From the NCBI GenBank assembly GCA_947600345.1, contig CANQGC010000002.1, positions 1-32,791 of the forward strand: a DNA stretch of 32,791 nt, given 5' to 3'. This DNA is from an uncultured Clostridia bacterium (GTDB lineage Bacteria > Bacillota > Clostridia > Christensenellales > Aristaeellaceae). The position numbers and the translations under genes were made by a program. A model generated the notes under the pieces. The model was not told the DNA's origin. It saw nothing but the letters and a program-made list of their open reading frames with translations, and did not search any database. Positions 29,912 to 31,903 of this stretch are shown one piece after another (the stretch's first letter is position 1; each line of letters opens with the position of its first letter).

Positions 29912-29940
29912 AGGGCCGTTCCGATATGGAACGGCCCTTA
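29912..29940 (+). terminator. Terminator-like hairpin at the end of the ABC transporter operon
   Basis: AGGGCCGTTCC-GATAT-GGAACGGCCCT followed by TAAATT. Confidence 0.65.
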
Positions 29941-30013
29941 AATTGTGGGTTTTGGGGATGGCGCTGCGGTGGGTGGGGAAGGGAATGCGGGGCGTTCGGT
30001 TGCTCGTTTGGCT

Positions 30014-30233
30014 CGGAAAGCTTGCGCTTTCCGACCATAAACTCGCCTCGCTCCGGCCCGCGCTTGGGGGCGATGGAGCCTTGGTTCGTATTGCCGAAGC
30101 TTTGTCTTGTTTGCGCGGGCCGGAGGGGGAACGCTGGGCTCCGCCCAGACCCGGCGGGCGCTGCCCGGACCTGCTCAAGGGGCTTTGCCCCTTGAGAATC
30201 CTCACCAAGGAACCTGAGGTTCCTTGGATTCTC
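30014..30233. repeat. Dense cluster of intergenic palindromes/hairpins, possible dispersed repeat or structured RNA
   Basis: CGGAAAGC-TTGC-GCTTTCCG; CTCCGGCCCGCGC(49 nt)GCGCGGGCCGGAG; CTGGGC-TCC-GCCCAG; CGGGC-GCT-GCCCG; CTCAAGGGGC-TTT-GCCCCTTGAG; CCAAGGAACC-TGA-GGTTCCTTGG with outer GAGAAT/ATTCTC. Confidence 0.8.
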
Positions 30234-30243
30234 CCTTCTGGGG

Positions 30244-30687
30244 TTACGCGGTTTGGCCTTCGATGTAGTTCTTCAAAAACAGAATCGCCTGGCGGTAGCC
30301 CTCGAAGCCCAGGCCCATGTAGGTCTTGACGCAGGCCAGGCGGGCGTAGGAGATCTGCCGGAAGTCCTCGCGGGTGGAGACGTCCGAGATGTGCACCTCC
30401 ACGGCAGGCAGGCAGACGGCCTTCAGCGCGTCCAGGATTGCCACGCTGGTGTGGGTGTAGGCGGCGGGGTTGATCACGATGCCGTCGCAGTCGCCCATCG
30501 CGGCCTGGATCTTATCGACGATCGCGCCCTCGTGGTTGGACTGGAAGATTTCGACCTCGACGCCGGCCTCCTTCGCGGCGTCGCGCACCAGCGCCTCGAG
30601 CGCCTTGTAGTCCTGGCGGCCGTAGATGTTCGGCTCGCGCGTGCCCAGCAGGTTCAGGTTCGGCCCGTTAACGACGAGAAATTTCAT
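30244..30687 (-). CDS. aroQ: 3-dehydroquinate dehydratase, type II
   Basis: MKFLVVNGPNLNLLGTREPNIYG...FQSNHEGAIVDKI...GIVINPAAYTHTSVAILDAL...VEVHISDVSTREDFR. Confidence 0.97.
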   Translation of the reverse strand: MKFLVVNGPNLNLLGTREPNIYGRQDYKALEALVRDAAKEAGVEVEIFQSNHEGAIVDKIQAAMGDCDGIVINPAAYTHTSVAILDALKAVCLPAVEVHISDVSTREDFRQISYARLACVKTYMGLGFEGYRQAILFLKNYIEGQTA

Positions 30688-31903
30688 GGTACACCTCCAA
30701 CATCTTCTCTGCGGTCTTTTCGGGGATGCCGGTGCTCTCGACCCGCGCGTCGGCGAAGGCCAGGTACATCGGCAGGCGGACTTTGTACATCTCCTCCAGG
30801 GAGTTGCGCTGGGACAGCGGGCGGCCCTTCTTGGACAGCAGCGCCAAGTCGCGCTCCAGGAAGATCACCACGCCGTTCTGCTTGAGCAGGTTCAGGTTGC
30901 GGGGCTGGGTGATGCAGCCGCCGCCGGTGGCGACGACCAGCGAGCTGCGCTTGCAGGTGTCGGCGATGGCCCGCGTCTCCTCGTCCCGGAAGGCGGGCTC
31001 GTCGTGGGTCTCGAAGAACTCCGGGATCGTCATGCCGATGTTGGCCTCGATCACGTCGTCCAGGTCCACGAACTCCCGGCCGGTGCGCGCGGCGATGATC
31101 TCGCCCACGGTGGTCTTGCCGCAGCCGGGCATGCCGATGAGTATGATGTTCTGCGTCTGCGCGCGCAGCAGGGCGAGGATTTCGTCGGACTTTTCAGCGG
31201 GGATTTTGCTCCCGGTGAAGGTCTCCGACGCGGCGCGCGCCTGCTCCACCAGCATCACGAGGCCGGCCATGCAGGGGATGCCCCGCGCCATCGCGTCCTG
31301 GATCAGCCGCGTGCGGGCGGGATTGTAGATCACGTCCAGCACGGCCTCGAGCTTCGGAAGCCTTTCGATGTCCAGCGGGGCGACGTTCGTGTTCGGGTAC
31401 ATGCCCACCGGCGTGGTGTTGACCAACACGCTGGCGTCGGCGTGGCGCTCGAGGTTTTCGTAGTTGTCCGGCCCGCTGCGGGAGATGACGATCACCTCCG
31501 CCGCGCCGCGCGACTTCAGCACGTGCCGCGCGGTCAGCGAAGCGCCGCCGCTGCCCAGCACCAGCGCCTTCCTGCCGCGCAGGTCGACGCCCAGCCGGTC
31601 GAGCATGGCGCTGAAGCCGTCGGCGTCGGTGTTGTGGCCGAAGATTGTTCCGTCGGGGCGCTTCACCAGCGTGTTGACGCTGCCGATCTGCCGCGCGGCC
31701 TCGCTCAGCTCCGCGCAGTAGGGGATCACGTCCCGCTTGTAGGGGATGGTGACGTTCAGCGCGTCCCAGGGGCCGTTGCGCAGGAAATCGTCCAGCGCCT
31801 CCGGCTCCACCTCGAACAGGTCGTAGCTGTAGTCGGCCAGCATGGCGTGAATCTGGGGCGAGAAGCTGTGGCCGAGCACGCGGCCCAGAAGTCCGGCGCG
31901 CAT
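30668..31903 (-). CDS. aroEK: Bifunctional shikimate dehydrogenase / shikimate kinase (AroE-AroK fusion)
   Basis: AroE: GLLGRVLGHSFSPQIHAML, LNVTIPYKRDV, GSVNTLV, GHNTDADGF, LVLGSGGAS. AroK: IILIGMPGCGKTTVGEIIAARTGREFVDLDDVIE, VVATGGGC, RPLSQ. Confidence 0.95.
   Translation of the reverse strand: MRAGLLGRVLGHSFSPQIHAMLADYSYDLFEVEPEALDDFLRNGPWDALNVTIPYKRDVIPYCAELSEAARQIGSVNTLVKRPDGTIFGHNTDADGFSAMLDRLGVDLRGRKALVLGSGGASLTARHVLKSRGAAEVIVISRSGPDNYENLERHADASVLVNTTPVGMYPNTNVAPLDIERLPKLEAVLDVIYNPARTRLIQDAMARGIPCMAGLVMLVEQARAASETFTGSKIPAEKSDEILALLRAQTQNIILIGMPGCGKTTVGEIIAARTGREFVDLDDVIEANIGMTIPEFFETHDEPAFRDEETRAIADTCKRSSLVVATGGGCITQPRNLNLLKQNGVVIFLERDLALLSKKGRPLSQRNSLEEMYKVRLPMYLAFADARVESTGIPEKTAEKMLEVYHEISRR

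Follow-up and report, generated by a model that had tools for sequence, protein, structure and literature searches.

A high-copy, modular repeat of six hairpins beside aroQ in an uncultured Clostridia bacterium

The intergenic DNA next to aroQ in the window (the whole stretch analysed, 32,791 nucleotides) holds one copy of what we read, with a probability of about 0.7, as a modular, non-autonomous interspersed repeat of six hairpins that spreads in trans and has its palindromes kept at the level of DNA. The repeat is present in high copy number, is modular and intergenic, occupies sites that are empty in a relative, and its stems covary. An earlier note, drawn from the letters of the window, had said that no feature explains this region; a genome search overturns that statement, as the region is a high-copy repeat.

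The whole element runs from 29985 to 30249 on the forward strand and ends in the motif CCCTTCTGGGGTTACG, its left boundary being approximate to ~15 bp either way. These limits are those of the block conserved in alignments of 43–62 copies, outside which the flanks are unalignable. The earlier note had placed it at 30014–30233, a span that takes in the hairpins correctly but is somewhat short of the true element, whose right end overlaps the aroQ stop. All six inverted repeats listed there are present at those positions when the sequence is read directly (the hairpins are given without strand). H1, the hypervariable hairpin, pairs CGGAAAGC (30014–30021) with GCTTTCCG (30026–30033) around the loop TTGC and is flanked by TTTGG...CCA. 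H2 is a 13-bp perfect inverted repeat, CTCCGGCCCGCGC (30051–30063) with GCGCGGGCCGGAG (30113–30125), around a 49-nt loop. H3 pairs CTGGGC (30134–30139) with GCCCAG (30143–30148) around TCC and is a module absent or doubled in some copies. H4, CGGGC (30155–30159) with GCCCG (30163–30167) around GCT, is the first half of a double-hairpin core found family-wide, and H5, CTCAAGGGGC (30174–30183) with GCCCCTTGAG (30187–30196) around TTT, is the second; the core model R1 matches the window at 30154–30201. H6 pairs CCAAGGAACC (30205–30214) with GGTTCCTTGG (30218–30227) around TGA, and has outer arms GAGAAT (30194–30199) and ATTCTC (30228–30233). The right-end motif GGGGTTACG (30240–30249, forward strand) includes the TAA stop of aroQ (30244–30246, minus strand). 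The predicted folding energy of 29990–30255 lies far below that of 200 dinucleotide-preserving shuffles, with z of −6.3 as DNA, −5.9 as RNA of the forward strand and −6.4 as RNA of the reverse strand, and none of the 200 shuffles was as good.

Copies are ~250 bp long and modular, with the order H1–H6 in common. Two right-end forms occur, CTGGGGTTACG and CTGCTGCCGCG, and the left ends also have two forms. Modules are missing, doubled or inserted: several copies lack profile positions 160–211, others have H3 twice, and extra hairpins separate H5 from H6 in L060 and L072. In L120, L126, L067 and L059 the left end is preceded by one more small hairpin (e.g. GCAGGCTTCGCCTGC, GCACCGCGCTTCGCGCGGTGC), which is retained at a site shared with the sister species (L067/L105). 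In the right flanks of L029, L067, L069, L118 and L124 a different repeated hairpin, such as GACGGACTTTGGGCCC-GTAGAT-GGGCCCAAAGTCC, often comes after the CTGCTGCCGCG end.

The adjoining gene, aroQ (30244–30687, minus strand), encodes a class II 3-dehydroquinate dehydratase (DHquinase_II, Pfam PF01220, E 2.7e-56). Upstream of it, at 30668–31903, lies one reading frame with shikimate dehydrogenase-like and shikimate kinase domains. On the other side of the element is a forward-strand ABC transporter operon for a solute-binding protein and two BPD_transp_1 permeases. A separate hairpin 3' of the permease gene, GGGCCGTTCC gatat GGAACGGCCC TT (29913–29939, forward strand), was found by reading the sequence; it is outside the element, is not common to the copies, and is probably the ordinary terminator of the ABC operon.

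The window's own genome assembly (G000) comprises 3.03 Mb in 393 contigs and is 79% complete. A search of it with the element gave 48 matches from the best 40 of 337 first-look candidates, and a second query at least 41 matches with 340 candidates; genome-wide, first-look candidates number 337–345. A profile built from 43 copies (threshold E<=1e-8) was run on 362 kb of G000, where it found 30 copies, and on 390 kb of G001, a same-genus metagenome-assembled genome (MAG; 'uncultured Clostridia bacterium', CANQEW01), where it found 15. The total for G000 is estimated at ~250–340 copies, an extrapolation and not a count. The dispersed repeat that was one of the candidates of the earlier note is thus borne out, and the search that it proposed of the same genome and relatives returned many copies, not a single one. 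Several large G000 contigs begin within a copy, and the repeat probably contributes to fragmentation of the assembly. Even the two copies most alike share no more than 93% identity, and the closest pairs have flanks in common, which argues that no burst of spread is under way. Some copies form inverted pairs with a gene between them: a gene for a short protein that weakly matches a bacterial SH3 domain (L049 1592–1915, G000:C1), the flanking sequence of which is found again in L053 and L066, and a gene with a Bro-N domain (L124 5527–6462, G000:C12). Neither is a transposase.

All sampled copies in G000 and G001 lie between called genes, one partial match at a contig edge excepted, and they occur in both orientations relative to the genes. 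With both samples pooled, 10 copies lie in convergent regions and a single one in divergent regions, of which there are about as many, although copies are few and the contrast is significant in neither genome taken separately (p 0.06 and 0.22). The element's own TAA serves as a stop codon in three copies. G001 and G000 are sister species, with ~87% identity in aligned DNA. At five orthologous loci one species has the element and the other a clean gap (the element being in G000 at four and in G001 at one), with cassettes of ~280–500 bp, and the aroQ site itself adds a case, as G001 and G002 lack the element there. Part of these gaps may reflect deletion, and each difference may be a gain or a loss. 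Two further loci, found among loci chosen for carrying the element, are apparently occupied in both species.

Pairing within the stems was followed in 62 copies and 54 pairs, a set not selected for perfect hairpins. In this set 97.5% of cells are paired, with 257 two-sided changes, where cells count sequences and not independent events; none of 500 shuffles was as high, and sliding the arms abolishes the signal. The covariation that the earlier note had suggested looking for is therefore strong across the 62 copies. By stem, 98.2% of cells are paired in H2, whose core GGCCCGCG / CGCGGGCC is near-invariant across copies, 98.7% in H4, and 99.8% in both H5, which has compensatory changes, and H6. 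H1 has 44 distinct 5' arms in the 62 copies, of which 48 have perfectly matched 12-nt arms. At the shared site L067/L105 the frame is retained but the H1 hairpin, still perfect, has an altogether different sequence, its G001 stem being 20 bp and perfect. In G000, 77 of 78 H6 stems are perfect across five stem sequences, the CTTAAG- and CCAAAG- variants staying perfectly paired, and in one copy the H6 loop is inverted from TGA to TCA with the stem retained.

The intermediates bear on how the arms are kept alike. G-U is tolerated in RNA, and selection on one RNA strand should make G-T and A-C unequal. Against 256 two-sided changes there are 29 G-T and 20 A-C intermediates; H3, which is partly misaligned and whose counts are blurred by misaligned duplicates of the H3/H4 modules, supplies more than half of the G-U cells, and G-U counts are similar for the two strands. 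Since G-T and A-C counts are similar and intermediates few, the arms appear to be kept up at the DNA level. Template switching that creates and maintains stems has been documented (PMC8794818), and the hairpins described there share with this element coupled changes in two arms and few intermediates. Those hairpins lie in RNA genes, whereas here the hairpins belong to a DNA repeat dispersed through one genome in hundreds of parallel copies. We infer that the perfect palindromes are best explained by template-switch correction during DNA replication, although matched arms may instead originate from strong purifying selection and founder effects.

The double-hairpin core extends the family beyond the genus. 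Of 100 genomes from the same bacterial family, 38 have a match to a covariance model of H4–H5; they represent 22 of 50 genera and often carry at least tens of copies, with no more than 61 candidates scored. The 398 genomes from elsewhere in the phylum gave no match (E<=1e-4, stricter filters). A relative assembled to 100% completeness (G007) has ~20 copies of the core. Across genera its plan is GGGGC-nnn-GCCCC, ACCCCGC, (T)CAAGGGGC-nnn-GCCCCTTGA and GAATCC, with stems that vary in concert. Two-sided changes number 125 and one-sided changes 2 in an alignment fitted to the model, whose seed sequences were picked from perfect hairpins and so favour perfect pairing. In G016, from a different genus, the core stands in a tandem array of five units of 158–160 bp (L094 1493–2194, G016:C31). 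Searches of plasmids and phages with the element found no match, nor did a scan of viral contigs with the H6 sequence. The 51-nt core consensus has a 23-nt match (E 0.02) near the mobV relaxase gene of an E. coli plasmid (L231 2501–2523) and a 23-nt identity upstream of floR on an Actinobacillus plasmid (L230 214–236); both were judged to be probably chance or an unrelated hairpin. Weak matches were also seen in unannotated faecal 'phage' scaffolds. Rfam, at gathering and relaxed thresholds, gave nothing credible, and the open literature searched by sequence words and topic holds no description of the repeat, which is apparently undescribed.

Very strong covariation, and copies near the 3' ends of genes, are what would be expected of a structured RNA, a 3' UTR module or a non-coding RNA (ncRNA) under selection for RNA pairing, with copies serving many genes. 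Presence and absence differ between sister species, however, both orientations relative to genes occur, Rfam offers no match, and G-U pairs are few and alike in number on both strands. A structured RNA, also entertained in the earlier note, is thus disfavoured by the sister-species differences and the scarcity of G-U intermediates, and we consider it improbable. Somewhat less improbable, though still unlikely, is that the element is mainly a bidirectional transcription terminator or barrier to RNA decay, of whatever origin, with mobility secondary. The right end lies 4–31 bp from an opposing stop codon in ~23 of 52 copies (an approximate figure, based on open reading frames in a GC-rich genome), and divergent regions are avoided. 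But the element has no T tracts, at the aroQ site G001 and G002 carry a short terminator of the ordinary kind with another gene downstream, and 16 of the 21 G000 copies placed between called genes have co-directional neighbours. The absence of U tracts after the hairpins, already pointed out in the earlier note, is real, and the sole terminator-like match inside the element is at chance level; an intrinsic terminator was rejected, as the GC hairpin lacks a following T tract. A bidirectional barrier effect is possible as a side effect.

Numerous, intergenic and palindromic copies, sometimes in inverted pairs such as C23:15415(−)/15842(+), recall the REP/BIME repeats moved by RAYT (TnpA_REP), a Y1 HUH transposase; those repeats are likewise intergenic palindromes with hundreds of copies, sometimes in inverted pairs (PMC8266576). 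REPs are palindromes of 20–50 nt with a conserved tetranucleotide in front, mostly GTAG (PMC8266576), whereas this element is a composite several times longer, and GTAG or GGAG within 8 nt 5' of the hairpin was found in 0 of 47 cases for H5, 0 of 49 for H6 and 1 of 31 for H4. The linked transposase that the earlier note proposed to look for was not found either: Y1_Tnp is represented in G000, a 79% complete assembly, only by a 28-aa fragment at a contig edge (L097 3–68, G000:C329), in G001 by mostly broken copies, and in the near-complete carriers G007, G015 and G016 not at all, and the Y1 genes examined have no copies of the element alongside. The REP/BIME label does not hold, and we regard that reading as very improbable indeed. 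The size, the intergenic sites and the occupied and empty loci would agree with a classical MITE, derived by deletion from a DDE insertion sequence and mobilised in trans by the transposase of that sequence, and prokaryotic MITEs too are short, non-coding and present or absent between relatives (PMC10969869). No terminal inverted repeats (TIRs) or target-site duplications (TSDs) were detected, in contrast to those MITEs: over 49 copies the mean longest inverted match is 5.2, against 5.4 in shuffled pairings, and target duplications show no excess (6.3 against 6.1, p 0.18), with imprecise boundaries (~15 bp on the left) such that short TSDs could be missed. The MITE suggested by the earlier note therefore keeps its occupied and empty sites and loses its TIRs; it is a minority possibility. 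Reverse transcriptase (PF00078) and IS110 DEDD transposase (PF01548) are absent from G000 and from the 100%-complete carrier G007, and an element derived from either was rejected on that account. Searches for Y1_Tnp, RVT_1 and the IS110 DEDD transposase thus found no enzyme linked to mobilisation of the repeat.

On the preferred reading, that of a non-autonomous interspersed repeat, a selfish DNA element would spread by means of a putative enzyme acting in trans, and would be tolerated mainly beside the 3' ends of genes, where it may do least harm. Template switching between the arms at replication would copy a change in one arm into the other, in place of step-wise selection on RNA. In the window, where the element sits at the end of aroQ, the aroQ mRNA would acquire a long and structured 3' UTR, and whatever this did to transcript ends or stability would be incidental. 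The family would still be gained or lost between sister species. The nearest known kind appears to be that of modular non-autonomous interspersed repeats such as BOX, a likeness in manner of working, with no claim of common descent. BOX of Streptococcus pneumoniae (boxA-boxB-boxC), with RUP and SPRITE, is likewise high-copy, modular, structured and non-autonomous (PMC3049150). In BOX, as here, size follows the number of modules and copies are enriched between convergent genes; BOX is read as parasitic, and the bias of pneumococcal repeats towards convergent regions has been taken as a sign of mobile parasitic repeats (PMC3049150). The present element differs in being GC-rich, with six hairpins, mostly three-base loops and one hypervariable perfect hairpin, and with no TIR or insertion-sequence partner found. 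A bolder proposal, offered tentatively and with considerable doubt, is that the repeat represents a novel class of DNA element, built of hairpins, self-spreading and confined to one uncultured Clostridia family; it would move as folded single-stranded DNA by a putative enzyme, and template switching would time and again turn the hypervariable H1 into a fresh perfect palindrome.

For the bacterial family, whose assemblies are probably fragmented in part by this repeat, the finding adds a repeat family that has no Rfam entry. It also shows that strong covariation is by itself no proof of a functional RNA. The hundreds of parallel hairpin copies in one genome are natural replicates of stem evolution, from which one can count directly, in a bacterium, whether compensatory changes come from a pair of separate mutations or from a single template switch. 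The family is well suited to asking how perfect palindromes are maintained in bacterial DNA.
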